NCBI GenBank assembly: GCA_964036195.1
Contig: OZ038451.1
Location: 7,382,529-7,446,528, forward strand
DNA length: 64,000 nt
Direction: 5' to 3'
Origin: Sphaerolaimus hirsutus
Lineage: Eukaryota > Nematoda > Chromadorea > Monhysterida > Sphaerolaimidae
Shown here: one piece after another, positions 9,741 through 64,000 of the stretch
How the letters are laid out: each line of letters starts with the position of its first letter
Numbering within the stretch: the first letter of the stretch is position 1
The notes under the pieces: model-generated
Told to the model about the DNA's origin: nothing
The model's database searches: none
The model's input: only the letters and a program-made list of their open reading frames with translations
Position numbers and translations under genes: made by a program

Positions 9741-10422
9741 TACCGTATTACCTCGAATTATCCCCCCCTTGAATTACCCCCCCCCCCCCCTCGAAATACC
9801 CCCCTCAATTTCGGCTGAGGAAATAATAAACCCCCCCTCGAAATACCCCCCCCCCCCTTAAATCGAGTGTGAAGAGAACGTACATGACAAATACCGCAGT
9901 TTGTGATCTGTCGAAGTCAGAACACACGTTAAGACTGATGATTGAGTGATGTTAGGGAAGGGTTTATGTGTATATACAGTTATATATGCCTAAAAACTCA
10001 TATATACTCCGGTTACTTTACACCCTGCACGCGTGGTTCCCGCTGGAAGTGTGCCAACGATGGTTAACCCATCCGAGTTTCATAAAAAGATGACAAAATT
10101 GATTGTTGTTATAACGTTATTCATTAACACATTCACATCGATGAATTTTTTTCATATTTTTACGGAAATCGCATGATTTAATAATCATTGGCACGCTTCC
10201 AACACGAGACATAAATCAGTGCGAGGGCAGAGTATCACGTACGCCGAGTATACGTCTATGTAAACGCTTGATTTTTCTACGTCTGAGTATGCGGAATTTC
10301 TGAAAATTTCTGGCGAAAAAATAGACCCCCCCTCGAATAACCCCCCCCCCTCGAATTATCCCCCCTCAAATTTTGCAGGCGAAATAATAAACCCCCTGGG
10401 GGTATTTCGAGGTAATACGGTA
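9741..10422. mobile_element. G/C-tract element interrupted by a TATACTCC element
   Basis: TACCGTATTACCTCGAATTA at 9741 pairs with CGAGGTAATACGGTA ending at 10422. The CCCCCTGGGGGTATTTCG phrase lies next to the right end. A 250-bp element of another family (10003-10252) is inserted in the middle. Confidence 0.8.
10003..10252 (+). mobile_element. 250-bp TATACTCC...GAGTATA element
   Basis: Starts TATACTCCGGTTACTTTACA and ends TACGCCGAGTATA, with short inverted ends and TA at both borders. Marker phrases are GCACGCGTGGTTCCCGCTGG and AACACGAGACATAAATCAGT. Other copies are at 16141-16390 (reverse), 38973-39221 and 50612-52174 (interrupted). Copies are closely similar, implying a fairly young family. 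Confidence 0.85.
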
Positions 10423-12103: not shown

Positions 12104-12239
12104 AAAGCACCAGAGAATGAAAAATTTACGCTGCGATAACTGAATGCGAATTGCGTAAGCTCGATGGCCAATTCATTTTATGGCTATTTTTATTCTTATG
12201 AATGAAGTGTGCATCATACTACCTGTCGTAAAAGTCTTA

Positions 12240-12435
12240 ACAGTCATGTAAAATGCCCTGTAAAATGTGAAACATATTGAAATTTGACATTCTACGGGGT
12301 CTTTCAAATGACATTTTACAGAATATTTTACATGACATTTGGCATTTTACAGGGGTTTTTTTACAAAACTTTTGACATTTTACTGGTAATTTGACACTTA
12401 ACAGAGTTTTACAAGGTCTGGGAGTGTCCCCACCC
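12240..12435. mobile_element. Relative of the TGTAAAATG-ended MITE that splits the UNC-93-like exon
   Basis: Left part GTCATGTAAAATGCCCTGTA, right part with TTTGACATTTTACTGG and then GGTCTGGGAGTGTCCCC. These are the same terminal words as the MITE at 54281/63740. A degenerate relative is at about 26390-26500. Confidence 0.5.
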
Positions 12436-16140: not shown

Positions 16141-16390
16141 TATACTCGGCGTACGTGATACTCTGCCCTCGCACTGATTTATGCCTCGTGTTGGAAGCGT
16201 GCCAATGATTTTTAAATAATGCGATTTCCGTAAAAATATGAAAAAAATTCATCGATGTGAATATGTTTATGAATAACATTATAACAACAATCAATTTTTT
16301 CATCTTTTTATGAAACTCGGACGTGTTAACCATCGTTGGCACACTTCCAGCGGGAACCACGCGTGCAGGGTGTAAAGTAACCGGACTATA
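16141..16390 (-). mobile_element. 250-bp TATACTCC...GAGTATA element, reverse copy
   Basis: Reverse-complement copy of 10003-10252, starting TATACTCGGCGTACGTGATA and ending GTAACCGGACTATA. It sits in the remains of the C-tract element that begins at 15364. Confidence 0.85.
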
Positions 16391-25845: not shown

Positions 25846-26234
25846 TTTTATTTTTATTTTATTCTTGTTTCATTTTATTTTATTTTATTCCAAAATAATA
25901 ATAAAATAATAAAATGGACCATTTTACAAAATTTTACAAAAATTTTACAGAAATTTTACAAAAAATCTGAATCTTGCATGCAAGGTCAGAAAAATGTGAT
26001 AATTAGACCTAAACATGAAAAACGTGTGACAATTTTTTCCATTACTTTGCAAAAGTTGCATGCAGTAGGTATTGTTAGCTGGTGCAAGTGTTAAGTTACA
26101 ATTATCGATAAGAATGGTTTGCATTATCAGTAGAAGGATTACTGGAGTGTGCTGGGCGCATTTGTAAAACATTATGCAAAGTGTCAATTGTCATGACAAA
26201 TGTTGTGCAGAGTGTAAATTGTGTAACTGAATCT

Positions 26235-26362
26235 TATGTTTGGGTATCCAAACCTTATATTTTGGTATCCAAATCTCATGTTTTTGTATCCAAATGTTCA
26301 CATAAGATTTGGTTACAAAAACAACAAGATTTGGATACAAAAGATAAGATTTGGATACAATT
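26235..26362. repeat. Mirror-image array of TTTGGTATCCAAATCTTATG units
   Basis: Three units of TTTTGGTATCCAAATCTCATG type (21-22 bp) are followed by three units of the reverse complement (AAGATTTGGATACAAAAG), so the block folds back on itself. Confidence 0.65.
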
Positions 26363-26900
26363 TGCTTTACAGTTTCCACTTAAATTTATATTTGTCATGG
26401 CAATTGACACTTTACTTAACATTTTCATGAAAATTGACACTTTCCACTCCATTTCATATGACATTTTGACACTTTACATGGCTTGGGACTGCCCCAGCTC
26501 CACGAATGAACAGGTTGAACTATAAACAACAAAAAAATTTTTTACAAAAAATATGAATTTTTATACAATTTTTACAAAAATATGAATTTGTATACAATTT
26601 TACAAAAATTTTACAAAAATTCAAATTTTTATACAATTTTTATTTTTATTTTGAAATTTTCCATTTTATTTTATTTTATTTTATTCTTCAATTTTCCATT
26701 TTATTTTATTTTTATTCTTTTCTGAAGTTTTGCCAACTCTGAACGTGAGTAAAATACTTTTTTTCAGAGAAAACGTAAAACTGAGTATTTTTCTCACATA
26801 AAACGTAGAATGAGTATTTGTCTCATATAAAATGTTAAAGTGAGTATTTTTCTCACAGAAAACGTAAAAATCAGAAAGTTTGTCAATTTTTACTCTAGAA

Positions 26901-38972: not shown

Positions 38973-39221
38973 TATACTCCGGTTACTTTACACCTTGCAC
39001 GCGTGGTTCCCGCTGGAAATGTGCCAACGATGGTTAACGCGTGCGAGTTTCATAAAAACATGACAAAGTTGATTGTTGTAATAATGTTTTTCATAACCAT
39101 ATTCACATCGATAAATTTTTTCATCTTTTTATGGAAATCGCATGATTTAACAATCATTGGCACGCTTCCAACACGAGACATAAATCAGTGCGAGGGCAGA
39201 GTATCATGTACGCCGAGTATA
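38973..39221 (+). mobile_element. 250-bp TATACTCC...GAGTATA element
   Basis: Forward copy of 10003-10252, starting TATACTCCGGTTACTTTACA and ending TACGCCGAGTATA. The interior GCACGCGTGGTTCCCGCTGG and AACACGAGACATAAATCAGT are intact. Confidence 0.85.
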
Positions 39222-45283: not shown

Positions 45284-45483
45284 NNNNNNNNNNNNNNNNN
45301 NNNNNNNNNNNNNNNNNNNNNNNNNNNNNNNNNNNNNNNNNNNNNNNNNNNNNNNNNNNNNNNNNNNNNNNNNNNNNNNNNNNNNNNNNNNNNNNNNNNN
45401 NNNNNNNNNNNNNNNNNNNNNNNNNNNNNNNNNNNNNNNNNNNNNNNNNNNNNNNNNNNNNNNNNNNNNNNNNNNNNNNNNNN
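45284..45483. other. Assembly gap, 200 N
   Basis: Exactly 200 N. The sequence to the right (TGAAACAATAACACCCCCCC...) is the interior of a C-tract element, so the gap probably lies in homopolymer-rich repeat and its true size is unknown. Confidence 0.95.
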
Positions 45484-49182: not shown

Positions 49183-49398
49183 ATCTGGCTAGCCAAGAAG
49201 TCCCTGTGCACACGTCTGTGCCTCCTGCTGGCGGCGTGGGTGCTCATGAGCTCTGGGTTCTACGCGACGCAGAGCCTGCACAGCGCCGTCAACGGACCGC
49301 TGGGCTTGGCCGCGCTCGCCGTGCTGCACTTGAGCGCCGCCGCCGCCCTGTGCTTCCTGCCCCAGTACGTCCAGGCGAGGCTTACGTGGGCGCAGCAG
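49183..49398 (+). CDS. UNC-93-like gene: exon with transmembrane helices 1-2
   Basis: Acceptor CCTACACAG, donor CAGCAG|GTGGGT, 72 codons, phase 0 to 0. Reads IWLAKKSLCTRLCLLLAAWV, LMSSGFYATQSLHSAVNGPL, GLAALAVLHLSAAAALCFLP, QYVQARLTWAQQ. A basic start, a hydrophobic helix, the A-T-Q-S-L-(H)-S-A-V-N loop and a second helix match the N-terminal part of the UNC-93 branch of the major facilitator superfamily (compare the Q-S-S-L-N pattern in that family). UNC-93 proteins are multi-pass membrane proteins: the founding member regulates a potassium channel and UNC93B chaperones Toll-like receptors. The role of this copy is unknown. Confidence 0.8.
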
Positions 49399-49700
49399 GT
49401 GGGTGGGCGGTTGAGAGCCCTGGTGTTTTGGTTCTTATAGTAGACGGGCATCGATTTGTATACTAAAGGAGAGCAGCTCCAATAGAACGGCAGGTAGAAA
49501 TTACGTTGGAAGAGTGCCAAGCCAAAAAAATGGAGAGCGAGAATTTTGAAAGCATTCAAGACACGAGTTGGTACGACACCTCCAATAGAACGGCAGGTAA
49601 AAAGTTGTTGGAAAAAATACGACAGGCCTGTTCTACAGAAAAAATACGGCGGTACATAATCCGCAACAAAAAAAATCTACCCTATGAACACATTCCCCAG
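49399..49700. other. Intron with an in-frame extension of the next exon and a duplicated segment
   Basis: From 49506 to 49700 a + strand frame (MEECQAKKMESENFESIQ...GKKLLEKIRQACSTEKIRRY...) runs without a stop directly into the exon at 49701. The phrase CTCCAATAGAACGGCAGGTA occurs twice (about 49477 and 49581), each time offering a CAG|GTA donor. It could be an alternative first exon or an older exon duplication. Otherwise it is intron. Confidence 0.35.
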
Positions 49701-49791
49701 TTACTGTTCGCGCTGGTCGGCTACGCGGCCTACATGACTTGCAACGTGCTGCGGCAGCCCTACTCCCTGCTTCCAGCCGCAGCACTCTTTG
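49701..49791 (+). CDS. UNC-93-like gene: exon with transmembrane helix 3
   Basis: Acceptor ACATTCCCCAG (phase 0), donor TTTG|GTTTGT (phase 1). Reads LLFALVGYAAYMTCNVLRQP, YSLLPAAALFG. Hydrophobic helix with P-Y-S-L-L-P-A-A-A-L-F-G matching the helix 3-4 hinge (Y/W...P...L.G.A) of UNC-93 proteins. The next exon continues the glycine codon. Confidence 0.8.
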
Positions 49792-50175
49792 GTTTGTTTT
49801 AACCCGGAACATGATAGGCGGGTTATTGTTGGATGTGCGGCGGGATGGAATGTGTATTTGTCGAACCTAAGGAACCTTAGAGAACGTTTCAGACTGTAGA
49901 AAAGTTGGTGATACCCGCCTGTTAATGGTGCTTTTTCAGCGTTTTTGTTTTGCTGATACTCAGCTGTTTACATGCAGCAAAAGTCAAACCAAGCTTTTGC
50001 ATCCGACCAGTGCATTTCCATTGTTTTTGTCCTTTTTACTTAAGTGTAGGTGAAGGTGAAAATACCTCTAAAAGCACGACCGAAGGCCTTAGTCTACCCT
50101 GCTAGTCGATAAAAGTCTCACACCATCATCTCACCCAAACATAGAAATTGCTTATTCAATCAATCATCAATTAAG

Positions 50176-50321
50176 GCGTGGCCCAGTGCATCGCGTGGAC
50201 CACCCTGTGCGACATAATCGTCGCCCACGGCAGGCACTTCGCGCTGCTCAACACTGAGAGCTCTAGAATTGTGATTGTGCGGCTCTTTGGGCTGTTTTTC
50301 ACGTGCATTCATATTAGCCAG
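50176..50321 (+). CDS. UNC-93-like gene: exon with transmembrane helices 4-5
   Basis: The acceptor in TCAATTAAG gives phase 1, completing G-V-A-Q-C-I-A-W-T-T. Then LCDIIVAHGRHFALLNTESS and RIVIVRLFGLFFTCIHISQ, donor CAG|GTGTGA (phase 0). The acceptor lacks a long pyrimidine tract, but the frame and the helix-loop-helix pattern fit the family, including the F-G-L-F-F-T helix that precedes I-G-N in the next exon. Confidence 0.75.
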
Positions 50322-50391
50322 GTGTGAAAATTTGGGCCCATGGGTTTTATTTGATGGTTTTTATGGTGGGTTATGGTAGTTGTGATTTCAG

Positions 50392-50490
50392 GTGATTGGT
50401 AACGTCGTTCCGTCGCTAATTTTTCATCAGCCGGATCTATCGAAGGGAGAGAAAAACGAGGTCTGTCACAGGCTGATATTTCCCGTCGTT
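50392..50490 (+). CDS. UNC-93-like gene: exon with I-G-N-V-V-P-S-L-I-F motif
   Basis: Acceptor TGTGATTTCAG, phase 0. Reads VIGNVVPSLIFHQPDLSKGE, KNEVCHRLIFPVV. I/W-G-N-x-x-x-S-L-x-F is a hallmark of UNC-93 proteins. The frame ends at GTCGTT|GTACCG, where the GT belongs to the end of a C-tract transposon (TACCGTATTACCTC) that starts one base later. The normal donor therefore seems to have been replaced by transposon sequence, or the exon is truncated. Phase 0 matches the next exon. Confidence 0.75.
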
Positions 50491-50605
50491 GTACCGTATT
50501 ACCTCAAAATACACCCCTCGAAAGGTCACCCTCAAAATGGCCACAATGAATAAATAACCCCCCCCCCCCGCCTTCCTTCGAAATACTTCCGCCTGGAATC
50601 ATGTA
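50491..50605. mobile_element. C-tract element fragment abutting the exon
   Basis: TACCGTATTACCTCAAAATA followed by CACCCCTCGAAAGG and runs of C. The right end is decayed (CGAAATACTTCC). Confidence 0.65.
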
Positions 50606-50633
50606 TTTAAATATACTCCGCTTACTTTACACC

Positions 50634-51939
50634 CAGGCTGTCCGCGCCGGAAACGCGCAGGGTTTCCTGCGCGTTTATTCTTAAAGCGACTGCCAAATTG
50701 CAATCGCTTTAAGCATGTGCCACTAACGTGTTTGCGGGGGGGAAACACTTTAAGACGCGCGGTTCCCGCCGCTGCGGTCGCGCAGCGCATGTGCCACTGC
50801 GCGCTTGCCGGGGGGAGACGCTTTAAGAGCACGCGTAGACGGGCATTAGAATCGCGCTGTCAAAAAACGACTGCGCGCTTGCACCCCCGGAAACCCTTTA
50901 ACAATGTTGTGATAATTTCGGTGCACACACTAGTTTACTAACAGAAGTAAACTCAAATTGGGTGCTCTTTTTATCACCTTTGAATGTATTTGGGTTTACC
51001 ACAATGAGTTATTCATTCAACTCATAACACTTCATTCTAGTAAACTGAAGTGCATTCAAAGCCAATCTATGAGTTTACAAAATCTGAGTTTACTGGAAGT
51101 AAACTAGTGCACGTGAAAAGCGTTGTTAGAGTCTGGCTATGTGATAAATCAATACCTCAATCAGTCAAATGAGAATTGGGCCTAGCCAGCAGTGCGGCCA
51201 CGCGGCAGCAACTTTGTATTTATTTGCCACCGCGGCATATCAAAGCATTCATAACTGCACCATTGTGAAATGAAATGATTTTGTTGTATATTTTACATGC
51301 GTGAACTGTACCCATGTAAATGAGGAACATAATCTGTCAATAACTATGTTGCGCCTGCAAAAATTTTATTTCTATCGTTGGTGGAAAATTTGCATTTATG
51401 TACTGGGAGTATAGGTAAGTTCCTATAAGACTTTTCTGATCTTCACATCACCCTTTGTATATTCCTATTTCAATTTATTTTTCTGGCTAATATCAGTATT
51501 TTTATAAATTGACATGTTTACATTTATCTGTGTCAATTAGTTTTGAGATTGCGCAACCACATTTTGAGATTTGCACACACGAATGTATTATTCACCTCCC
51601 CGCCTCTGCAATTTCCACATTTACCAATTCCCCATATGACTTTAACTGGAGTTTTATGGGTGTGAATCGGGAGTACAGGGTGGCTCAACAAGACTCGGAT
51701 TATATTTTCTTAAAGCGCTTGCGCTCATGGAAACTCTTTAACAGAGGGTTTCCAGAGTGCAAACACTTTAGCGTGTGCGCGCCTGCGCGTCGATAATTTG
51801 GGAGTCGCTTTAGCGACGTGTTTATGCGCGCTTGCACCAATGCGCATGCATGAGCCCAGCGCGCTTGCGTGTTGGGAAACTCTTTAAGGCTACGCGTAAC
51901 GCGTTTATGCCTTAAAGGGTTTCCGCCGCGGCCAGCCTG
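50634..51939. mobile_element. CpG-rich hAT-like element, exact TSD TTTACACC
   Basis: Ends CAGGCTGTCCGCGCCGGAAA and TTTCCGCCGCGGCCAGCCTG are inverted with two mismatches, flanked by exact TTTACACC at 50626-50633 and 51940-51947. About 270 bp at each end is extremely CpG-rich and repeats GGAAACxCTTTAA with CGCGCTTGC. The centre is AT-rich and holds a hairpin MITE. No transposase frame. Confidence 0.85.
50920..51117. mobile_element. Hairpin MITE GTGCACACACTAGTTTACT
   Basis: GTGCACACACTAGTTTACTA then ACAGAAGTAAACTCAAA at the left. CTGAGTTTACTGGAAGTAAA then CTAGTGCACG at the right. The interior is also mirrored around about 51020 (AACTCATAACACTTC). Confidence 0.8.
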
Positions 51940-52174
51940 TTTACACCTTGCACGCGTGGTCCCAGCTGGAAGTGTGCCAACGATGGTTAACGCGTGCGAG
52001 TTGCATAATAAGATGCAAAATTGATTGTTGGTATAGTGTTATTCATTAACACATACACATCGATGGATTTTTTTCATCTTTTTACGGAAATCGCATGATT
52101 TATTGATCATTGGCACGCTTCCAACACGAGACATAAATCAGTGCAAGGGCAGAGTATCATGTACGCCGAGTATA

Positions 52175-52767
52175 CATCATGTGAATATGCACTGTACATG
52201 ATTTAATTATAGCTGCCAGTTTGCACAATGACGAAATAATACCCCACTCGAAATACCACGTTTAACCCCCCCCCCCTCAAAATATGCACAATAAAAAGAT
52301 AAACCCCGGGGTGCATTTCGATGTAATGGGTATCCTATTTCATTTTTTAAATAAAAAATGAATCAACATTAATTAGAAAATATAAGCACAGGATGCTGAT
52401 ATTTTGGACAAAGTGTACCAAGGCTGTGGCAAATATTTCCATCCCATGGCTACGTTGCAGGGTGCAGAAGCGACCAATTTGCAGGTGTTTTTCACGTATT
52501 TGTGGCTCTACACACTTGTTTTTGGCTGAAAATTGTGAAATTGATGAATTTGCTTGAAACTCATTTGAGTTTACCTGAATGAACCATTTTTGATCTCTGT
52601 CAACAGTAGTTGACGTACTCCTTATTTCTGTAAACTCAAATGTGCTCAAAGTTATGGTTTATCAGTTTCGACAATTTCGGTCATATACTAAATAGTGGGT
52701 TGTACTTGGGTTCATAAGATATCTTGCGGTTTGAATGTCGCTTAACAAATGAATATTTTTCGTGCAG
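52175..52767. other. Intron with a C-tract fragment
   Basis: About 52220-52335 has C-tract phrases (ACGAAATAATACCCCACTCG, then CCCCGGGGTGCATTTCGATG). About 52505-52640 resembles part of a CACACxCTTGT hairpin family. No exon. Confidence 0.45.
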
Positions 52768-52906
52768 TCGTCCAGCGCAAGCGAATGGACCTGGATGTGC
52801 GGCATTTTTTTCATCTGCTGCTTATTTTCAGCGCTGATAATTTGCCTCGGCTATTCGAAGAAACACGATTCTATGGCGGCCCAGTTTGTCTCATTTTATT
52901 GTTATC
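52768..52906 (+). CDS. UNC-93-like gene: exon with a mid-protein transmembrane helix
   Basis: Acceptor TTTTTCGTGCAG, phase 0. Reads SSSASEWTWMCGIFFICCLF, SALIICLGYSKKHDSMAAQF, VSFYCY. An extracellular-type stretch is followed by a helix and a charged tail, as at the middle of the family's 12-helix plan. The frame runs into a stop two codons later, so splicing is needed. Donors at GTTAGC (52907) or GTTATC (52901) both leave phase 1, which fits an acceptor at 53721. Confidence 0.7.
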
Positions 52907-52927
52907 GTTAGCGTAAAACATTGGTCT

Positions 52928-53490
52928 ACCGTATTTCCTCGAGATAGCCCCAGGGGATTTATTATTCTACCCGGATTTTCATGACAGTCATCATCAGCTT
53001 GTTGCATTTTATTATACTCGGCGGACCGCAAGCGCAAAGTGTGCGATCAAATTTACTCAAATATGTCTTAGTCGATAACGCGCGAGTGGGACACTTATGC
53101 AGGCTTTTGCACGAAAAATACCGTATTTCGTCGAAATAACCCCCGGGGGTTTATTTTTTCACAGTGCAAGTTTTGAGGAGGGTTAATATGACGTGTGGTC
53201 CGCGGAGTATACCGCATTTCCTCTAAATACGCCCACCTCAAATTGAGTGTAAAGAGAACGTACATGACAAAACTGCGGTTTGTGATCCGGGCAATGCAGA
53301 AAACACGTTTAAACCAATGTTTGTGTTACGTTAGCACAGGGTTTGTACTAAATATCTACATACATTATATACTTCTATAGACTCGTATACATGGTGCTTA
53401 TTGTCACATTTTTCGACGTCTGGGTACGTTACAAGCATTGAATTAGCACTGGGAGTTCAAAAAATTTACAAAAAAAAAATCCGAGGAAAT
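52928..53490. mobile_element. C-tract fragments around a TATACTCGGCGGACC element
   Basis: TACCGTATTTCCTCGAGATA at about 52928, a partial TACCGTATTTCGTCGAAATA at about 53119, and CTCTAAATACGCCCACCTCA further on. Embedded at 53013-53211 is TATACTCGGCGGACCGCA to TGTGGTCCGCGGAGTATA, a short foldback element related to 37115-37308. Confidence 0.6.
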
Positions 53491-53721
53491 ACGGTGCATA
53501 GGTACCTATTCTACATTAACCTTCATTGAAGTGCTCAGTACAACGGGATGATTTAATGGGGAGAAGTTCAATCAAATCACAATCAGGAGAAGCGCAATCA
53601 AATCTGTGCATATTTCTAGGATCAAGGGTCAAATCAGGGAGTGGTTGGAAGAAATACGATATACTACCATGAAATCTTATCGATTTACCTAGTTACTGCA
53701 GCTTCCGACGACGACCGCCAG

Positions 53722-53855
53722 CTCAATATGACGTTTGGGCGGTGGTGAAAATGACTGGCGCGAAGGGCGATTTCGTGAAATGGTGCTCGCTCCTGGTGCC
53801 GCTCACGTTGTACCACGGCATGCAGCAAGCGTTTTTGTTTGGATTTTTCGATAAG
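53722..53855 (+). CDS. UNC-93-like gene: exon with L-V-P-L-T-L-Y-H-G-M-Q-Q-A-F motif
   Basis: Reads AQYDVWAVVKMTGAKGDFVK, WCSLLVPLTLYHGMQQAFLF, GFFDK, donor GATAAG|GTGTGT (phase 0). P-L-T-x-Y-x-G-x-x-Q-x-F-x-x-G is one of the most conserved UNC-93 motifs, at the start of the second helix bundle. Phase favours the acceptor CCGCCAG at 53721. The stronger-looking CTACTGCAG-like site at 53701 would need phase 2 and add six residues (FRRRPP). Confidence 0.85.
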
Positions 53856-53867
53856 GTGTGTGGGTTT

Positions 53868-54056
53868 CAAATACTGTATTTCGTCGAAATACCCCCGAAA
53901 TACCCACGCCGCCACATGAACTCACGCCCCCCCCCCTCCTGAGAATACCCCAGGTGTGAACGACTTATTTCTGGCAAAAAATTATACCCCCTCGAATTAA
54001 CCCCCCCCCCCTCAAAATTTGCTGGCGAAATTGGGCTATTTCGAGGAAATACGGCA
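53868..54056. mobile_element. Partial C-tract element in intron
   Basis: TACTGTATTTCGTCGAAATA to TATTTCGAGGAAATACGGCA, with ACCCCCTCGAATTAACCCCC between. Short relative of the common family. Confidence 0.65.
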
Positions 54057-54137
54057 ATCATAGTCCCTATAAAATGACGCTGTTCAATACGTTGTGTTTC
54101 CATTTGCAAAAAAAGTAATTTTTGACAATCCGCTCAG

Positions 54138-54280
54138 GCGTTCGTCGGCTGTTGTCTAGGTATAAAGCAAATCGGCATCGTAGTGTGCGCATTCGCGCTC
54201 GCCGACTCTGTGTGCTCTCTATTCTTTGGTCCCATCATCAAAATGTTCGGCCGGATGCCCCTGTTCACTTTCGGCCTGGT
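54138..54280 (+). CDS. UNC-93-like gene: left part of a coding exon split by transposons
   Basis: Acceptor AATCCGCTCAG, phase 0. Reads AFVGCCLGIKQIGIVVCAFA, LADSVCSLFFGPIIKMFGRM, PLFTFGLV. It matches the UNC-93 segment I-G...F-G...S-x-C-S-L-x-F-G-x-x-x-K-x-x-G-R. The exon stops being family-like at 54280, after CCTGGT, where MITE sequence begins. The missing remainder resumes at 63747. With the insertion in place the frame reads about 12 foreign codons and then stops inside the MITE. Confidence 0.85.
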
Positions 54281-54354
54281 GCCGCTCCCAGAGCCTGTAA
54301 AATGTCCTGTAAAATGTAAAATGTCATGTAAATGGTGAAAAGTCTTGGCAAGTG

Positions 54355-54359
54355 CACTG
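54355..54359. repeat. Target-site duplication CACTG (left)
   Basis: CACTG immediately before the 5' LTR is repeated at 63520-63524 immediately after the 3' LTR. BEL/Pao insertions typically duplicate 4-5 bp. Confidence 0.9.
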
Positions 54360-54520
54360 TGTTGCCATCTTGGCAAGAAAAGTGATAAATATACTTTAGG
54401 ATAGCAGAGTAAAAAATACTACTGTTTACACAAGTAGAGTAAGAATTACTACAGTTTGTATAAGTACCATGCATGGTCTATTTACATAAGAAAGTTTTAT
54501 TTACATAAGAAGGGTCCGCC

Positions 54521-54590
54521 GACTTGTCGCTGAGCTATGTTTGCATTTTATAGATCAAACATCTGACTTGTCGCTGAGCAGTGTTTGCAT
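54521..54590 (+). promoter_or_regulatory. Duplicated CpG motif in the LTR upstream of the TATA box
   Basis: GACTTGTCGCTGAGC followed by TATGTTTGCAT at 54521 and by AGTGTTTGCAT at 54565, preceded by GGTCCGCC. All four CpGs that I see in the LTR lie here (54516-54577). The position about 45-120 bp upstream of TATAAAA suggests an enhancer or silencer-binding site. Its function is inference. Confidence 0.5.
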
Positions 54591-54633
54591 GTTTTTAGAT
54601 GTTTGGCAAACAGTTTTTGTGCTAACTGAGGAG

Positions 54634-54640
54634 TATAAAA
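54634..54640 (+). promoter_or_regulatory. TATA box of the LTR promoter
   Basis: TATAAAA within GGAGTATAAAAGCAAG. Its copy in the 3' LTR is at 63273-63279. The transcript start, and so the U3/R border, would lie about 30 bp downstream. Confidence 0.75.
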
Positions 54641-54754
54641 GCAAGCCTCATGTTTAGTAAGATTCATATTTATAGTCAAAAATACATTCAACAGCATTGC
54701 ATAGCATTATTGCATCTTCAAACCTTCCCTTCCATTACTGTTGGACAAAGCAAA

Positions 54755-54760
54755 AATAAA
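54755..54760 (+). terminator. Poly(A) signal AATAAA in the LTR
   Basis: AATAAA in GCAAAAATAAAGTACCC, 115 bp downstream of the TATA box. The functional copy for 3' end formation would be the one at 63394-63399 in the 3' LTR. Confidence 0.65.
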
Positions 54761-54879
54761 GTACCCAAACCAAACCACTGGACTTCCTGAACTAAAAGCC
54801 AACACAACAACCATCAAGCCAACCTGACAAGCCACAACACAGGGGAGAAAACACCCACCACTGACCACAACCTCACAAC

Positions 54880-57800
54880 ATGGCGCAGCTTGCAACTGGA
54901 GACAGGGCACAGTCAGCATATGGCAATGCAGTTCCACAGCTTGTGGGATCAGGCACAATCAGAAAGGTCCTGGGACAGAACAGGAAACAAGCAAAGACTC
55001 TGTTGGCAGAGGAAGCACCAGTTTTCACACATGTCAAAGAGAGTGCTACTCATGAGAATGTCTCAAAGGCTAAACAAGTCAGAGTGGTTATGGCAAACCT
55101 GAGAGACAAATGTGAAGCATGCAAACAGAAATTGACAGAGAGGGACACAGAGTGGAGGAATGTTCTGGCAAATTTAGAGGCCCTTTCAAATCAAGGTCTG
55201 AAAGAATCCCAAGTACTTCAGAGTGAAGAAGAGCAGAAGTATGCAGAGCACTTGGAGAGCCCAGAAGGACATCTGAATCTGATTCAACAGCTTGAGGATA
55301 AAGCAATCAGTTTGAGGATTGGCATTCAGTCACTGGAGGAATACCTACAGAAAATCACTGGAACAGGGACAACATCACTGGCACAACAACAGAACTCAAA
55401 CTCAGCAACAACAACAGCTGGACAAGGCCAGTCAAATACAACTCAGAGGACTACATTAAGGTTGATGGAAGCCAAGTTGCCAAAGTTGGAGTTGAGGGAC
55501 TTCAATGGTGACATCATCCAGTGGGATGCTTGGTGGCAGTCATATGAGCAAGTCATACACAAAAGGACAGATATGGCCATCATCACCAAGTTCCAGTATC
55601 TGCTGAAATATGTGACTGGGGAGGCATTTGATGCCATCAAAGGAATCAGGGTGGTTGAGCAAAATTATGAATTGGCCATTGAAATTCTGCAAAAGCAATA
55701 TGGCAAGACAAGAGACATCAAAAGAAGACTGTATGCAAAGCTCCAGCAAGTCCCAGAGCCAAAAGGGCACTACAAGAGCTTGCAGAGTTTTCACAGAGAG
55801 GTGCAATCACTGGTGTATCAACTCAGATCTCAGAATGAAGATATGAACAATTATGCAACAGTTGAGATGATCAGATCCAAAATCCCAAGTAACATCAGAC
55901 TTGAAATTGTCAAAATAAAAGGAGAAGATCAAGAATGGTCAGTTGCAAACATTCTTAGCAGTTTGGAGAAGATCATTGAACAGAGGAAAGAGGCTGATAC
56001 AGACACACCAGACAAACAAGAATCCAACTTCAGCAAGAATTTACATCAGAAAAGAGATCAGAAACCAATAACAACCACCAGTGCATTCTCAGCTTCAGCA
56101 ACCAACAACAACCCATATTGCATCTTTTGTGAAGGGAGTCACTTCAGTTCAGAGTGCAGAAAATATGCAACAACTCAAAACAGAATGCAGAAATTGATGC
56201 AATCAAAAGACAGATGTACCAAGTGCACCAGAAAGGGACATTTCAAAAGAGACTGCAGGACCAACCTCAGATGCTTCTATTGCAAGGTAAAAAACCAACA
56301 TGCTTCAGCACTTTGTCCAGAAACATTCAGTAATGGAGTAAAAGAACTTAACAAGAGCAGTGGTGGGCACAAATCCACCAACCAAGGCACCAAGCCACAG
56401 ACAATGACTGCCGTAGCAATGGCAGGCAAACCAAGTTCAATAACAGAATTGAACAGATCAAATGCAGTAAACAGGCTACAGCAATCAACAGAACAGACAA
56501 TAAAGTCAACAGTTGATGTAGATGTCACAAATGCAACAGTGAACAAAATGGAAACAGAAACAGGTACATTTCAGTACAGGCCAGTCAGAATGCAAACTGC
56601 CAAAGCAATGGCATATAACCCAGAGGATCAGTCAGTACCTTGGCAATGTGCCAAGATTTTCTTGGATTCAGGGGCACAGAGGACATTTGTGTCAAAGGAG
56701 TTCATGAAGAAGTTAAAGCTCCAACCCAAAATTGCAGTAACTATTGGGCTGGGCACCTTTGGGACCAAAAAGAAAATGGATGTCAATGCTGAGATTGTGG
56801 AGCTGGACTTGCAATTGAAGGATGGCTCCAGGCAGACAATCACAGCAAATGCAATAGAAACACTGGCCACAATTCAACCCCACCAGGACTTGTCACAAGA
56901 TGATTGGGAATTCATCCATCAGAAGTGGGGCCAACAGGCAGACAAGTTGTTTGCAGAACCAATCAACTCCAATGGAGAACAGAGTGTCCCTGACATAGTC
57001 CTTGGTTTGGATGTGTATTGGGACTTCCTGACCAAACAGGGCACAATCAAATTGCCATCTGGAATGCATGTGGTCAAAAGCAAATTTGGGCTGATGATCA
57101 ATGGCCAGGATGGTACATCAAACAAAGAAGCTCAGAACAGTGGTGTCTTTACAGTCAGCCAGGTAACTGAGCAGAATTATGAACTGGCTATCAGCAATGG
57201 ACATTATAGCAGTTCCACTCAAATTTCAAACCCAAGAGTTGAAGAATTCTGGGAATTAGAGACAATTGGAATTAAAGATTGTCCAGTCATCAATGATGAT
57301 GAAAAGGCAACACAGCAATTTCATGCAACAACTGAATACAAAGACCTCAGATACCATGTGAAATGGCCATACATGGACTGTATAGAGAAATTGCAAAACA
57401 ACAAAGCAATGTCATTACAAAGGCACAGAGCACTGACAAACAGATTTTCCAGAGATGAAAAGGGGATGGATTTGCTCCAAAGATACAATCAGGTGATTGA
57501 GGATCAGCTCAAGAAAGGCATCATAGAAAAGGTGTTTGGTGAGCCAACAGATGGCAGAAAGATCCATTACCTGGCACACCAACCAGTAGAAACACCAGGC
57601 AAAACAACAACAAAGCTAAGAATTGTATATGATGCATCAGCTAGCATAAAAAATCACCTCAGTCTGAATGACTGCTTGCATAGAGGGCCAGTGATTTTGC
57701 CAGAGCTTGCTGGGCTTTTGCTGAGATTCAGAGCTGGTAGCATTGGCATCATTGCAGACATTGAAAAGGCATTCTTGCAAGTGGTGTTACAAGAGCCAGA

Positions 57801-60800
57801 CAGAGATTTGACCAGATGGTGGTGGTACAAAGACCCAACAAAACCAGTAATGGAGCAGAATCTTCAATTGTACAGATTTGTCAGGATGCCATTTGGTGTG
57901 ATTTCAAGCCCATGGTTGCTGGGTGCTGTCATCACACACCACCTACAAGTCCTTGTAGAGGATAGCAGTTTGCCAAAAGCACAATTGCTGGAGGGAATCA
58001 GTGATGGGATTTATGTAGACAATTTGATCTTCAGTGTGGATTCAGTGGATCTGGCCAAACAGAAATATGATGTCATCAAAGCAGCATTCAATTTGGCATC
58101 AATGAATATGAGGGATTGGACCACAAATAGTACAGAATTGAGAAAGTGCTTCAATGTAGATGACAAGAGTGAAACAAAAGAAGTCACTGTACTTGGAATG
58201 CATTGGAACACAGAAACAGACACACTCAATATCAGCAAACCAAAAGGGGCAGACAATCCACTTCCACAGAAGTTGACAAAAAGAGTTCTGGTTCAGTTGA
58301 TTTCAGCCATCTTTGACCCATTGGGCATGCTGTGCCCAGTGACAGTTACTCTGAAAGCCCTAATGCAGCAAATTTGGGCAGAAATCAAGTCAAAAGGTCA
58401 ATTAGAATGGGAAACAGAAGTACCAGACCAATACAATGAAAAGTTTTCAGAAATCAAAGAGTTACAGAAACAAGTCAATCAGATCAAATGGTCAAGGACA
58501 TTGGAACCCATCAAGCCCTCAGAAATGATGGAATTGCATGTGTTTACAGATGCATCAAAACAGGCATATGCAGCATCAGCATACCTCAGACAAGAATTAG
58601 AGAATGGTAAATTTGCAATGAAATTGATTTTTGCAAAGTCCAGAGTGGCACCCAAGCAGCAGAAAGGGAGGCCAATCACAATTCCAAGGCTGGAGTTATT
58701 GGGCTTAACAATTGGAGCCAGAATGGTCAAATTCCTACTGAAACAACTGAAAGGGTGGAAAATAGCCAAAAGTTTCTTGTGGACAGACAGTATTTGCTGT
58801 TTGTGGTGGCTACACTCCAACAAAACAATGGCATGTTTTGTCAAAAACAGGATTTTGGAAATTCAGACCATTCAAACTGAAACAAGTGTGCAGGTCAACA
58901 AAATTGACACAGCTGACAACCCAGCTGACATTGCATCCAGAGGATGTGACCTGCAAGAACTTCAGCAAAAGGATATTTGGTGGACAGGACCAATGGGTTT
59001 TCAAACAGAGTTGCCACCAAATTTTCAACCAGACAATGAGTCAATGCCACCAGATTTGAAGCCAGAAATTGAACAAGAGTTCATTATGCCAAAATCTTCA
59101 ATCTGGGTTGGGTTGACTACACAAGAGGAGCCAGAAACAAAGGATTTCCTGGCAGAAACGGAAAACAGTTATCAGATTGACCCAAAAAGGTTCTCAAAAT
59201 GGGACAAGTTACTCAGGGTAACAATCAGAGTGATGAGATTTGTGGCATATTTGAAAAGCAAGCACCAGAAGAAATCAGCTTGTCAACAAATCACTTTGAA
59301 CACAAAGGAGACACCATTCATGAAAGATGAATTGCAAGCAGCCACTGAGTACTGGGTCAAAGTAACACAACAAATTCAATTATCAGATCAAATAAAGCTC
59401 ATCAAGGAGGCACAGAAACAGAATGTGCCATTCCAGAAACACTTTGGCATCACTGCCAAGGAGCTGAAATTTGACAGTGTCAAAAATATTGTCAAAGTGA
59501 TGACCAGAATTCCTGACATAGATTGCAACCAGGAACTGTATCTTTTGCCACAGAAAGGATGCATCACCAGGTTGATCACTGAACATTACCACAGGAAGGT
59601 AATGCATGCTGGTGTAGCACAGACATTGGCAGAGCTCAGGGATAAATTTTGGATCCACAGGGGTAGAATCATGATACACAATATCATCAAACATTGTGTG
59701 GTGTGCAGAAAGGTCACAGGAAGGCCATACAAACAACCTGTGTTTGGAACACTGCCAAAAGAAAGGGTGGAGTTGCACAGGCCATTTCACCATGTGGGCA
59801 TGGATTACTTTGGCCCATTGTGGTATCAAGTGGCAGATGAGTTGGGACAGAAGGCACACAAGAAAGCATATGTCCTTCTGATCACTTGCTTCAGTACAAG
59901 AGCTGCACACTTAGAGCTTGTACCAAATATGACAGCAGCAGAGACACAAATGGCATTCACCAGATTTGAGAGCAGGAGGAATACACCACATAAAGTTTGG
60001 TTGGATAATGCACCACAATTCAAACAATTGGCCAGGAATCTACCAAATATACAGTGGAATTTTATCACTCCATTTGCACCATGGCAAGGTGGAGTATATG
60101 AGAGAATTGTGGGCATCATCAAACAACTCATGAAGAAAGCCCAGGCAGCAAATTACAACCCATTGTTGAACTGGATGGAACTCAGCACAATGGTTTTAGA
60201 AGTGGAAAAGATGTCAAACAGCAGACCACTGACATATGTGGGTGACACAATTGACACACTCCAAGTCCTGAGGCCAATGGATTTTCTGCTGGGGGACCAC
60301 ACAGGATCAGATCCTGTGGAAAAATTAATGTCAGATGATAAAAGCCATCAAAGTATGGATGCTGATCCAGAATATACACCAGCCAGAAATGAAAAACGGA
60401 AAATGAAAGAAGTATGGGATGCAATTCAACAGAAAAAGGAGAAATTATGGCATTTATGGCAGAAGCTGTATCTGGATATGCTCAGACAGAGATACAACTT
60501 TGGGAAACAAAGTAATAGAGATGTAATCACAGAACCCAAAGTTGGTGCAGTGGTACTGATCAAAGAACAGAATTTACCAAGAGGTGCATGGAAGCTTGGA
60601 AAAATTCAGAAGTTGAACAGAAGCAAAGATGGATGGATCAGAAGTGCAGAAGTACAATTAAAAAGTGGAAAACACATTGATAGACCAATTGTACATCTGT
60701 GTCCATTAGAAGTTCAAGACTATAATGGACAAGGACAAGAAAAGGATGACAAAGACAATCCAATGGACAAGAATCCACCAGACCAGCCATCACAAGCACC

Positions 60801-62937
60801 AGAAGCCAGAAAGAATCCATACAGAACAGCCAGAAGACAGCAAACATATGCAGATTTCTTCATGGTGGGATTGCAGGTTTTGACTATCATATCAATTGTC
60901 ATGTCTGGTACAAATGGAACAGGCAATTGGCAGCAACAATATAACAAACAGTTCAACTTGTGCACAAAGGCCAAAAATGGGCATGCCATTGCAATACCAG
61001 ACAAGATATATTGCAAATTTCCTATCACAGACAAAGTTAGGAAACAGGAAGTCAATTTGTGGGCACAAAGGTTGGAGCCACAAAAAGCAGTAGCATACAG
61101 ATGCTACATTGACCATCACATCATCACAACCAATATGGGATTTTTTGGCAGCAAGGGCATAATTGGAGACATTCATAAATTTGAAAGAGTGGATACCAAT
61201 GAATGCTGGAATGCAGTCAAAAAACAAAAATGGAAAAGGCAACAAATATTACAACTCAATGATGACTTATGGTCAACCAATCAGACACTTCATGTGGAAT
61301 ACAAGTGGTGCTGCATTGACAAAAAGAATGAAGCAATTAATTTTGTCATTGAAAAGGGACAAGTGGCATCACTGGATGGGCATAGATTGGTGTCAGACTT
61401 ACAAGACCTGTCAGCATGCTCTCCACTGGCTGGATATTGTCATGATGTCATGCATGCTGTGACAGTCTGGAATGGAACAAAGTTCAAGCATCAATGTGCC
61501 TATGAATTCCAAGGAAGATATGTTGGTAGCATCAGCAGACAGAGTGTTATCATAGAAGAGATTCAGAGTGCATATTCAGTGACACACAAAAATAAATGGC
61601 CAGCAGACACAGAATGTGTGCCACAGGATGCATTTTATGTTGATCAGGGTGCAGTGTTTCTGCAATTTACAACAGAGCAGACAGAGTTCACTGTATTCAA
61701 ACCAGAAACAGACAACAATACAATCAGCCAGATTTTTGAGGCACCAATTGAGGCTGTAGAGTTGGGGAAAATTCAATATGCAGCTCAAAAGATTCTTGAA
61801 ATGGAAAAAAGAGAATTTGGATTGGTGTGGCAACAAATGTGCACAATGAAACAGAGTCAACTGGATATGATCAGACAATTCTTCAGGCTGAATCCAACAA
61901 TGGGCATCAGAGCATTGATGGGCAGAGAAGATGTTCATGCAGAATGGGCAGGAGAAGCTGTGATATTTTGGGAATGCAAGAAAGTAAAACCAAAAATAGT
62001 GCACTTTGCTGGAGAATATGAAGGGACTTGTTACAAATACACCCCAGTGCAAATTGAGCAAGGGGGACAGTTGTACTTCATTAGTCCAGGCAGCTCAGAT
62101 CTTCTGCAGCATTCACCAACAGAGGATTGCAGACATGCCACACCCCATTATTTCCAACTGAACAATGGTGAATGGACAACAGCAAATGGACCAGGACATG
62201 TCCATGTATCAACTTTGCCAATTGAATTGACATGGAAAGGCAAATGGACAGCCTTCACACTGAATGCATCAAGCATCTTCCACATCAGCTTGGCCAACAT
62301 CAACTTCAATTTATGGGAAGCAAACTACCACTTTCAAAAGCTTCAGCAGCTGGAGCAGATGACAAGGAAACTGACAGACTACACAGCCAGCTGGGCACTG
62401 GATCCAGCTGTCATCAAGAATTCTATAGCTGGAGTTGGCACAGGCATTGGAGGATTTTATGAAGGTATTGGCAAAGAAATTGGTCATATTGTCAAAGGGA
62501 CATTGAGTGGGAGTACTTCAATGTGCAATGGAATCCTGAAAGGACCAGTGCAGTTCATCCTGAACTTGCTACTCATTGGAGGGGCAATATTTCTCATTGG
62601 ATATGGACTGTACATGTATGGGACATACAGAGCGAGCAAGGGACTTCCACTGCTTCCAGTCAGAGCATTGGGAACATGTTTCAGAGCAGTCATCAACATG
62701 TTTGGAACTTGTTTCACACTGACAACCAATTTGGCAAAGGCAAAACCAAAGCAGGAGCAACCCAAGAAGGCAATTAACCATGACTCCAAGAAGGAACTCA
62801 AGACACTGGGACAAACTATACAATACAATGTTGGTAAAGGTGAAGTTACACTGGCTCAGGATGGTCACAATGAACTTGGGCAACCATTGGTGAAATATCA
62901 GCAACACTGTGTGATCCAAGGGGAAGACATTCTGTGA
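54880..62937 (+). CDS. BEL/Pao retrotransposon Gag-Pol-envelope-like polyprotein, one intact frame
   Basis: 2685 codons without a stop. Domains in order (residues): coiled-coil-rich Gag N-terminus (about 60-150); DUF1759-like Gag core (about 195-340, FNGDIIQWDAWW at 208); three zinc knuckles at C414-C417-H421-C426, C446-C449-H454-C459 and C465-C468-H474-C479; aspartic protease with LDSGA (D596); reverse transcriptase with D960 in ADIEKAF and YVDN at 1045-1048; RNase H (D1224, E1272, D1303); integrase zinc site (H1571/H1576, C1606, C1609) and catalytic D1642, D1709, E1741; DUF5641-like tail (about 1885-1945). After residue 1990 comes an envelope-like part: a hydrophobic segment (1993-2009), a cysteine-rich ectodomain with N-x-S/T sites, a glycine-rich stretch (2517-2543) and a membrane anchor (2559-2583). 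The order protease-RT-RNase H-integrase and DUF1759/DUF5641 define BEL/Pao. All enzyme domains look complete. Start chosen at 54880 because it opens the frame at the LTR border. Confidence 0.95.
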   Translation: MAQLATGDRAQSAYGNAVPQLVGSGTIRKVLGQNRKQAKTLLAEEAPVFTHVKESATHENVSKAKQVRVVMANLRDKCEACKQKLTERDTEWRNVLANLEALSNQGLKESQVLQSEEEQKYAEHLESPEGHLNLIQQLEDKAISLRIGIQSLEEYLQKITGTGTTSLAQQQNSNSATTTAGQGQSNTTQRTTLRLMEAKLPKLELRDFNGDIIQWDAWWQSYEQVIHKRTDMAIITKFQYLLKYVTGEAFDAIKGIRVVEQNYELAIEILQKQYGKTRDIKRRLYAKLQQVPEPKGHYKSLQSFHREVQSLVYQLRSQNEDMNNYATVEMIRSKIPSNIRLEIVKIKGEDQEWSVANILSSLEKIIEQRKEADTDTPDKQESNFSKNLHQKRDQKPITTTSAFSASATNNNPYCIFCEGSHFSSECRKYATTQNRMQKLMQSKDRCTKCTRKGHFKRDCRTNLRCFYCKVKNQHASALCPETFSNGVKELNKSSGGHKSTNQGTKPQTMTAVAMAGKPSSITELNRSNAVNRLQQSTEQTIKSTVDVDVTNATVNKMETETGTFQYRPVRMQTAKAMAYNPEDQSVPWQCAKIFLDSGAQRTFVSKEFMKKLKLQPKIAVTIGLGTFGTKKKMDVNAEIVELDLQLKDGSRQTITANAIETLATIQPHQDLSQDDWEFIHQKWGQQADKLFAEPINSNGEQSVPDIVLGLDVYWDFLTKQGTIKLPSGMHVVKSKFGLMINGQDGTSNKEAQNSGVFTVSQVTEQNYELAISNGHYSSSTQISNPRVEEFWELETIGIKDCPVINDDEKATQQFHATTEYKDLRYHVKWPYMDCIEKLQNNKAMSLQRHRALTNRFSRDEKGMDLLQRYNQVIEDQLKKGIIEKVFGEPTDGRKIHYLAHQPVETPGKTTTKLRIVYDASASIKNHLSLNDCLHRGPVILPELAGLLLRFRAGSIGIIADIEKAFLQVVLQEPDRDLTRWWWYKDPTKPVMEQNLQLYRFVRMPFGVISSPWLLGAVITHHLQVLVEDSSLPKAQLLEGISDGIYVDNLIFSVDSVDLAKQKYDVIKAAFNLASMNMRDWTTNSTELRKCFNVDDKSETKEVTVLGMHWNTETDTLNISKPKGADNPLPQKLTKRVLVQLISAIFDPLGMLCPVTVTLKALMQQIWAEIKSKGQLEWETEVPDQYNEKFSEIKELQKQVNQIKWSRTLEPIKPSEMMELHVFTDASKQAYAASAYLRQELENGKFAMKLIFAKSRVAPKQQKGRPITIPRLELLGLTIGARMVKFLLKQLKGWKIAKSFLWTDSICCLWWLHSNKTMACFVKNRILEIQTIQTETSVQVNKIDTADNPADIASRGCDLQELQQKDIWWTGPMGFQTELPPNFQPDNESMPPDLKPEIEQEFIMPKSSIWVGLTTQEEPETKDFLAETENSYQIDPKRFSKWDKLLRVTIRVMRFVAYLKSKHQKKSACQQITLNTKETPFMKDELQAATEYWVKVTQQIQLSDQIKLIKEAQKQNVPFQKHFGITAKELKFDSVKNIVKVMTRIPDIDCNQELYLLPQKGCITRLITEHYHRKVMHAGVAQTLAELRDKFWIHRGRIMIHNIIKHCVVCRKVTGRPYKQPVFGTLPKERVELHRPFHHVGMDYFGPLWYQVADELGQKAHKKAYVLLITCFSTRAAHLELVPNMTAAETQMAFTRFESRRNTPHKVWLDNAPQFKQLARNLPNIQWNFITPFAPWQGGVYERIVGIIKQLMKKAQAANYNPLLNWMELSTMVLEVEKMSNSRPLTYVGDTIDTLQVLRPMDFLLGDHTGSDPVEKLMSDDKSHQSMDADPEYTPARNEKRKMKEVWDAIQQKKEKLWHLWQKLYLDMLRQRYNFGKQSNRDVITEPKVGAVVLIKEQNLPRGAWKLGKIQKLNRSKDGWIRSAEVQLKSGKHIDRPIVHLCPLEVQDYNGQGQEKDDKDNPMDKNPPDQPSQAPEARKNPYRTARRQQTYADFFMVGLQVLTIISIVMSGTNGTGNWQQQYNKQFNLCTKAKNGHAIAIPDKIYCKFPITDKVRKQEVNLWAQRLEPQKAVAYRCYIDHHIITTNMGFFGSKGIIGDIHKFERVDTNECWNAVKKQKWKRQQILQLNDDLWSTNQTLHVEYKWCCIDKKNEAINFVIEKGQVASLDGHRLVSDLQDLSACSPLAGYCHDVMHAVTVWNGTKFKHQCAYEFQGRYVGSISRQSVIIEEIQSAYSVTHKNKWPADTECVPQDAFYVDQGAVFLQFTTEQTEFTVFKPETDNNTISQIFEAPIEAVELGKIQYAAQKILEMEKREFGLVWQQMCTMKQSQLDMIRQFFRLNPTMGIRALMGREDVHAEWAGEAVIFWECKKVKPKIVHFAGEYEGTCYKYTPVQIEQGGQLYFISPGSSDLLQHSPTEDCRHATPHYFQLNNGEWTTANGPGHVHVSTLPIELTWKGKWTAFTLNASSIFHISLANINFNLWEANYHFQKLQQLEQMTRKLTDYTASWALDPAVIKNSIAGVGTGIGGFYEGIGKEIGHIVKGTLSGSTSMCNGILKGPVQFILNLLLIGGAIFLIGYGLYMYGTYRASKGLPLLPVRALGTCFRAVINMFGTCFTLTTNLAKAKPKQEQPKKAINHDSKKELKTLGQTIQYNVGKGEVTLAQDGHNELGQPLVKYQQHCVIQGEDIL
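54881..54898 (+). promoter_or_regulatory. Primer-binding site overlapping the start of the reading frame
   Basis: TGGCGCAGCTTGCAACTG directly follows the LTR. TGG pairs with a tRNA 3' CCA. TGGCGCAG would pair with a tRNA ending CTGCGCCA, as in serine tRNAs whose acceptor stem begins GCAG. The tRNA identity is inference. The site lies inside codons 1-7 of the polyprotein. Confidence 0.6.
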
Positions 62938-62992
62938 TCAATGGGCAGTCAAGCATTGGGTGAATTACTGGTGGCTTCACACATTGTCCTCT

Positions 62993-62998
62993 GGGGAG
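62993..62998 (+). promoter_or_regulatory. Polypurine tract
   Basis: GGGGAG immediately before the 3' LTR, 55 bp after the polyprotein stop. Short for a polypurine tract but in the exact position needed for plus-strand priming. Confidence 0.65.
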
Positions 62999-63519
62999 TG
63001 TTGCCATCTTGGCAAGAAAAGTGATAAATATACTTTAGGATAGCAGAGTAAAAAATACTACTGTTTACACAAGTAGAGTAAGAATTACTACAGTTTGTAT
63101 AAGTACCATGCATGGTCTATTTACATAAGAAAGTTTTATTTACATAAGAAGGGTCCGCCGACTTGTCGCTGAGCTATGTTTGCATTTTATAGATCAAACA
63201 TCTGACTTGTCGCTGAGCAGTGTTTGCATGTTTTTAGATGTTTGGCAAACAGTTTTTGTGCTAACTGAGGAGTATAAAAGCAAGCCTCATGTTTAGTAAG
63301 ATTCATATTTATAGTCAAAAATACATTCAACAGCATTGCATAGCATTATTGCATCTTCAAACCTTCCCTTCCATTACTGTTGGACAAAGCAAAAATAAAG
63401 TACCCAAACCAAACCACTGGACTTCCTGAACTAAAAGCCAACACAACAACCATCAAGCCAACCTGACAAGCCACAACACAGGGGAGAAAACACCCACCAC
63501 TGACCACAACCTCACAACA
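62999..63519 (+). repeat. 3' LTR of the BEL/Pao element
   Basis: 521 bp from TGTTGCCATC to CACAACA, apparently identical to 54360-54880. Followed by the duplicated CACTG at 63520-63524. Confidence 0.95.
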
Positions 63520-63746
63520 CACTGTAAATGTCTAATGAAATGCAAATTTCCCTGTAAATTTCAAATCCCATGAAATGTGTCATAAGTTATGTAAAATGCC
63601 CTGGAAAATGGCAAACCTTCTTTGGCCGTTTTACACTAGGTATATTTTACATGACTTTTGACACTTTGCATGACATTTGACACTTTACAGGGCATTTTAC
63701 AGGGCATTTTACATGACATTTTACAGGCTCTGTGAGTGCCCCTGGT

Positions 63747-63871
63747 TGTGAACATGCTCATGGTGGTCACGCTCATGTGCTGGCCGCCCGTAGGACAGGA
63801 TGCGGCTATTTTGTACGCGGTCGCCATTAGTTGGGGCATGGCAGATGCTGCGTGGAGCACGCAAATTGCCG
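63747..63871 (+). CDS. UNC-93-like gene: right part of the split exon
   Basis: Continues from 54280 once the insertion and one CCTGGT copy are left out, giving V-V-N-M-L-M-V-V-T-L-M across the junction. Then CWPPVGQDAAILYAVAISWG, MADAAWSTQIA, donor GCCG|GTTTGT (phase 1). G-M-A-D-A-A-W-S-T-Q-I matches the family's G-L-x-D-A-V-W-Q-T-Q signature in the second half of the protein. Directly upstream there is a stop codon in this frame (in the MITE) and no acceptor, so it cannot be a free-standing exon without new splice sites. Confidence 0.85.
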
Positions 63872-63933
63872 GTTTGTTTTTTGGTGATTTTTTTGTGTTT
63901 TTGATTGTCCTTCATTTTTGCTTCTGTTTTCAG

Positions 63934-64000
63934 ATTTCTGGGTCGTTTGCAGTCGGTACCAGTATAGGGAAGCGTTCACGGTGTTCTGCTTTTGGCAGTG
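63934..64000 (+). CDS. UNC-93-like gene: next exon, cut by the window end
   Basis: Acceptor CTGTTTTCAG. Entering in phase 1 it reads (D)FWVVCSRYQYREAFTVFCFW, Q. It corresponds to the region after the D-A-x-W-x-T-Q motif, where family members have a helix, a short charged loop with E-A-(A)-F and the following helix (W/F-x-x-W). It continues beyond 64000. Confidence 0.75.
   Translation, partial: MSGSFAVGTSIGKRSRCSAFGS

Follow-up and report, generated by a model that had tools for sequence, protein, structure and literature searches.

The window analyzed here, i.e., 64,000 nt of Sphaerolaimus hirsutus contig OZ038451.1, contains a coding exon that starts at 54138, reads ..GRMPLFTFGL, and then enters a foldback element; its frame picks up again at 63747. 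Is this gene copy broken, or is the intervening DNA removed from the RNA? Among the three readings offered in an earlier note on this DNA (a disrupted allele, a pseudogene, or unusual splicing), the disrupted allele was the best supported, given that the exons are otherwise open and that no pair of splice sites restores the native protein.

An UNC-93-like gene with a split exon

Exons were chosen by their open frames and GT-AG splice dinucleotides, with three borders set by eye, and joined into a model spanning 49183-64000 and encoding 375 residues (Table 1). The joined model matched the Pfam UNC-93 profile (PF05978; E value, 6.8e-12; score, 45.7 bits; cut-off, 22.9), placing the predicted protein in the UNC-93 family, and it also matched UNC93B1 chains in the PDB (best E value, 7.1e-8). 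Two UNC-93 proteins from the database (P0001 and P0002; one is a Toxocara canis UNC93-like protein) were 36 and 38% identical to the model. In the protein search with the 375-residue model, the 7,994 candidates sharing most words were scored; a search with a 162-residue part of the model found no UNC-93 relative among 15 candidates, and neither set of scored candidates included a close, possibly same-species protein. Taken alone, neither half of the divided exon reached a Pfam cut-off: the left half had subthreshold matches to Sugar_tr (E value, 0.0036) and MFS_1 (0.0088), and the right half had none in the Pfam scan. Because the gene continues past the window at its 3' end, the model covers only the part inside.

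Table 1. Positions of the gene, MITE, and BEL/Pao features in the window
Feature	Positions	Strand	Basis or remark
UNC-93-like exon	49183..49398	+	Open; AG before, GT after; within model matching PF05978
UNC-93-like exon	49701..49791	+	Open frame, GT-AG borders
UNC-93-like exon	50176..50321	+	Open frame, GT-AG borders
UNC-93-like exon	50392..50460	+	3' end by eye; aligned with relatives
UNC-93-like exon	52768..52883	+	3' end by eye; aligned with relatives
UNC-93-like exon	53702..53855	+	5' end by eye; aligned with relatives
UNC-93-like split exon, left part, ending in first CCTGGT	54138..54280	+	Joined frame; alignment
Left copy of 6-nt direct repeat CCTGGT	54275..54280	+	Target duplication of ambiguous length (2-6 nt)
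Foldback MITE, left part, including CACTG 54355-54359	54281..54359	+	Inverted repeat with right part
TGA ending read-through translation	54336..54338	+	19 codons past CTG 54276-54278
5' LTR of BEL/Pao element (TGTTGCC..CACAACA)	54360..54880	+	Identical to 3' LTR over 521 nt
Long open frame of BEL/Pao element, from first ATG	54880..62937	+	Pfam matches of pieces
3' LTR of BEL/Pao element	62999..63519	+	521/521 identical to 5' LTR
BEL target duplication CACTG, right copy	63520..63524	+	Left copy 54355-54359
Foldback MITE, right part	63525..63740	+	Inverted repeat with left part
Right copy of CCTGGT	63741..63746	+	Sequence
UNC-93-like split exon, right part	63747..63871	+	Joined frame; alignment
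UNC-93-like next exon, cut by window end	63934..64000	+	Alignment

Omitting 9,466 nt yields an in-frame MPLFTFGLVVNMLMVV across the joined flanks, which aligns without gaps to MPLFVFGAVINMLMIM in both relatives. The joined frame and this alignment bear out the earlier proposals that the frame breaks at the first CCTGGT and resumes after the second, and that leaving out the insert plus one CCTGGT makes it continuous. Read through, the exon reaches a TGA after 19 sense codons and not, as first estimated, about 12 codons into the MITE. The CCTGGT repeat by itself is only modest evidence of how the insert arose. Bridging repeats of at least 6 nt occurred at 548 of 200,000 random junctions drawn in the window (a slight underestimate, with skipped draws kept in the denominator), and one of the gene's ordinary introns (50322-50391) likewise shows a 6-nt bridging repeat.

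The surroundings are rich in dispersed repeats, many in inverted orientation, with 71 to 96% identity among the 60 pairs listed (e.g., 10003-10252, 16141-16390, 38973-39221, and 51940-52174); such repeats also occur in introns of the UNC-93-like gene (53220-53433 and 53967-54054). The window further includes an assembly gap of 200 N (45284-45483), and no tRNA gene was found in it.

A BEL/Pao element nested in a foldback MITE

Without the BEL element, the MITE measures 295 nt. Its terminal inverted repeats (54285-54316 and 63705-63736) had been described as 26-bp inverted ends; the repeats are real, but the arms are longer (32 nt) and imperfect (94% complementary). Their local inverted-repeat score was 87; in 1,000 shuffles, such scores averaged 26.6 and peaked at 49. 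Between each arm and CCTGGT lie 4 nt in which pairing is incomplete. With DNA parameters, the MITE folds into a single long, nearly full-length hairpin (-74.7 kcal/mol). Two diverged relatives were detected in the window, near 12230-12432 and 26140-26495, in a comparison that used a MITE sequence lacking its final base, the G of CACTG that had been counted with the LTR. The MITE thus has both the terminal inverted repeats and the other copies expected of a foldback MITE. The ends of the relatives point to a family terminus near GGGGCACTCCC, and CCTGGT may therefore be partly terminal repeat and partly target duplication (2 to 6 nt). The relative at 26140-26495 contains a palindrome of approximately 310 nt.

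The MITE together with the 6-nt repeat comprises 301 nt, which is not a multiple of three; thus, even without the BEL element, the MITE would disturb the reading frame in addition to introducing stops. On this length we rejected the idea of an in-frame MITE.

The edges of the MITE also bear on whether the transposons entered an intron that already existed at this site, which we consider scarcely credible. A donor-like GT (54279-54280, in CTG/GTGCCG) does score -0.7, a value comparable to those of other donors in the gene. With just 4 nt between each 32-nt arm and its CCTGGT, however, no ancestral intron sequence remains and an older intron would have no space, and the resuming GTT GTG AAC has no AG before it. 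We rejected a pre-existing intron on these arm positions and on the missing AG in register.

The BEL/Pao element (54360-63519; 9,160 nt) lies in the same orientation as the gene. CACTG on both sides and the identical LTRs confirmed the earlier claim that it is situated inside the MITE with its own target duplication. The zero differences between the LTRs, counted over 522 columns (one flanking base too many), set a 95% upper bound of approximately 0.6% on their divergence. The 5' LTR carries TATAAA at 54634 and AATAAA at 54755. Between the LTRs, a frame of 2,690 codons from stop to stop combines gag-pol-type domains with a fusion-glycoprotein-like region. This frame was scanned against Pfam as nine separate pieces cut at arbitrary borders. 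DUF1759, Peptidase_A17, Integrase_H2C2, DUF5641, and, near the end of the frame, Monjiviricetes_fusion (E value, 7.9e-15) scored above the cut-off; gag-asp_proteas, zf-CCHC, DUF1758, RVT_1, and Glycoprotein_B scored below it, and RNase H and integrase-core families were absent from the matches of the nine arbitrarily bordered pieces. Peptidase_A17 is the Pao retrotransposon peptidase, and DUF1759 and DUF5641 are typical of BEL/Pao polyproteins. The LTRs, the short target duplication, and these polyprotein families together support assignment of the predicted element to BEL/Pao.

Two relatives of the glycoprotein-like piece (44 and 47% identity) were present among 2,048 candidates. Against solved structures, this piece had no convincing match: the best row was a nanobody (E value, 0.00074), which we took as a chance match, and herpesvirus glycoprotein B chains matched only at E values of 0.16 and above.

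BEL/Pao elements (Belpaoviridae) are described as infecting metazoans, as having LTRs of 0.2 to 1.2 kb, and in some cases as carrying an env-like gene (PMC8742986). A chuvirus-derived glycoprotein is reported for mosquito BEL/Pao elements of the Anakin type (PMC7642597); in a follow-up survey, that group found no such capture in other insect species, except for one unclassified complete element from Bemisia tabaci (PMC10084718). A BEL/Pao element with a fusion-glycoprotein-like region is therefore a combination already known from mosquitoes. In content, the present element resembles the Anakin-type elements (PMC7642597), with two LTRs, BEL/Pao-type domains, and a glycoprotein-like region matching Monjiviricetes_fusion. 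The matched domains of the present element share one open frame.

The two nested target duplications, the terminal inverted repeats, the identical LTRs, and the homology across the join support the reading that the MITE lies in the exon and the BEL element in the MITE. We regard the presence of two insertions, one nested in the other, in this coding exon as confirmed. The MITE halves pair with each other and the CACTG duplication falls inside the MITE, and the MITE was thus inserted first and the BEL element second.

Can the insert be spliced out?

If the MITE acted as an introner, it would be removed from the RNA either through conventional GT-AG sites within its terminal parts or by an unconventional mechanism using its hairpin and direct repeat, and the BEL element would then be intronic. 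Several features of the locus are of the right kind: the MITE combines a nearly full-length hairpin and terminal repeats with a direct repeat, and its exact removal restores the frame. Precedents have been described among introners: noncanonical ones with direct repeats of 3 to 5 nt and inverted repeats in Amoebophrya (PMC7789003), and ones that add codons in Aureococcus (PMC9860276).

We enumerated all combinations of 16 GT (donors, 54200-54358) with 11 AG (acceptors, 63525-63859). Of the 176 pairs, 18 left an open frame; 15 of these lost native residues, and none restored the native protein. The earlier statement that no acceptor AG gives the right frame thus fails with respect to open frames and holds with respect to the native protein. 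Three pairs kept the frame and every native residue while adding 11, 15, or 19 residues. Sites were scored with general consensus frequencies, not with a trained model. The best of the three pairs (-4.6) scored higher than the gene's own intron at 49792-50175 (-9.4 under the same scheme; individual sites, -3.3 and -6.1), and low splice scores thus do not disprove splicing; the own-site scores in this comparison leave out donor 50464 and acceptor 53701, whose positions had been misplaced.

Shuffling nevertheless argued against a splicing function. The best frame-keeping pair was equalled or beaten in 332 of 1,000 shuffled MITEs, three or more pairs arose in 360, and at least one pair keeping frame and residues arose in 641. 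All three pairs share a single acceptor, AG 63735-63736 (-5.2), which lies just downstream of a better CAG (acceptor 63727; 2.4). Of the seven registers that would restore the exon exactly, none has GT-AG borders, and GT..TG comes closest. Five other introns of the gene, all GT-AG, lack end inverted repeats (scores of 6 to 18, against 71), and transcription would have to pass through the BEL LTR and its AATAAA.

Introner elements (PMC9860276 and PMC7789003) likewise lie in coding sequence and have the hairpin structure of a DNA transposon together with direct repeats. In contrast to those elements, the MITE offers no GT-AG pair that restores the protein, its splice potential is at the level of shuffled sequence, and one exonic copy was seen (PMC9860276 and PMC7789003). 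We rejected a conventional introner on the enumeration, in which the GT-AG potential was no better than chance, and we regard removal of the MITE from the RNA by either route as quite unlikely. It is very improbable that the MITE family represents unconventional introns, excised from the RNA by means of the hairpin and flanking direct repeat. If this were true, a coding exon would have tolerated first a MITE and later a retroelement of 9 kb that includes a glycoprotein-like region, and the protein would have been kept. The candidate splice outcome would be a junction of ..GGCCTGGT to TGTGAAC.., or one using AG 63735-63736.

A probably disrupted allele

The gene is otherwise in good order. Its eight modelled exons within the window are open apart from the insertion, its introns are GT-AG (five tabulated and two read by eye), and many residues of the eight exons are common to both UNC-93 relatives. 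The open exons and GT-AG introns argue against an old pseudogene. An assembly chimera would find some encouragement in the dispersed repeats and in the one run of N, which is distant from the site, but two nested duplications are not expected of a misjoin. Overall, an old pseudogene or a chimera is a quite unlikely account of the locus. Since the gene is otherwise open where visible, the event was probably recent, and the insertion may be heterozygous or polymorphic.

We conclude that the locus is, with high probability, a recently disrupted allele produced by two successive insertions. As the sequence shows, a nonautonomous foldback MITE of 295 nt first entered a protein-coding exon of the UNC-93-family gene, duplicating up to six target bases. 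The 9,160-nt BEL/Pao element followed, landing within the MITE in the same direction as the gene and duplicating CACTG. Transcripts would read 19 foreign codons followed by a stop, or, given the AATAAA in the 5' LTR, may end at that poly(A) signal. The resulting protein would be cut in the C-terminal half of the transporter. Several points count against this reading: the open remainder of the gene is equally expected if the insert is spliced out, weak splice scores do not exclude splicing, the gene extends past the window at its 3' end, and the scored candidates included no close, possibly same-species protein.

Insertion of a MITE into a coding exon, followed by nesting of an LTR element within it, is an event of a known kind. 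A literature search for transposon insertions in unc-93 yielded a single paper, which was judged from its entry not to be relevant. The locus shares with an ordinary transposon-induced null allele the terminal inverted repeats, a target duplication (2 to 6 nt), the nesting, and an in-frame stop soon after the junction; only the size and apparent youth of the second insertion are unusual by comparison. As read, this copy of the gene has most likely been broken by an ordinary kind of mutation. The main use of this result is for annotators, who might otherwise split the UNC-93-like gene in two. As a disrupted allele, the locus would clearly illustrate how nested transposons, probably of recent arrival, damaged a conserved gene for a membrane protein.
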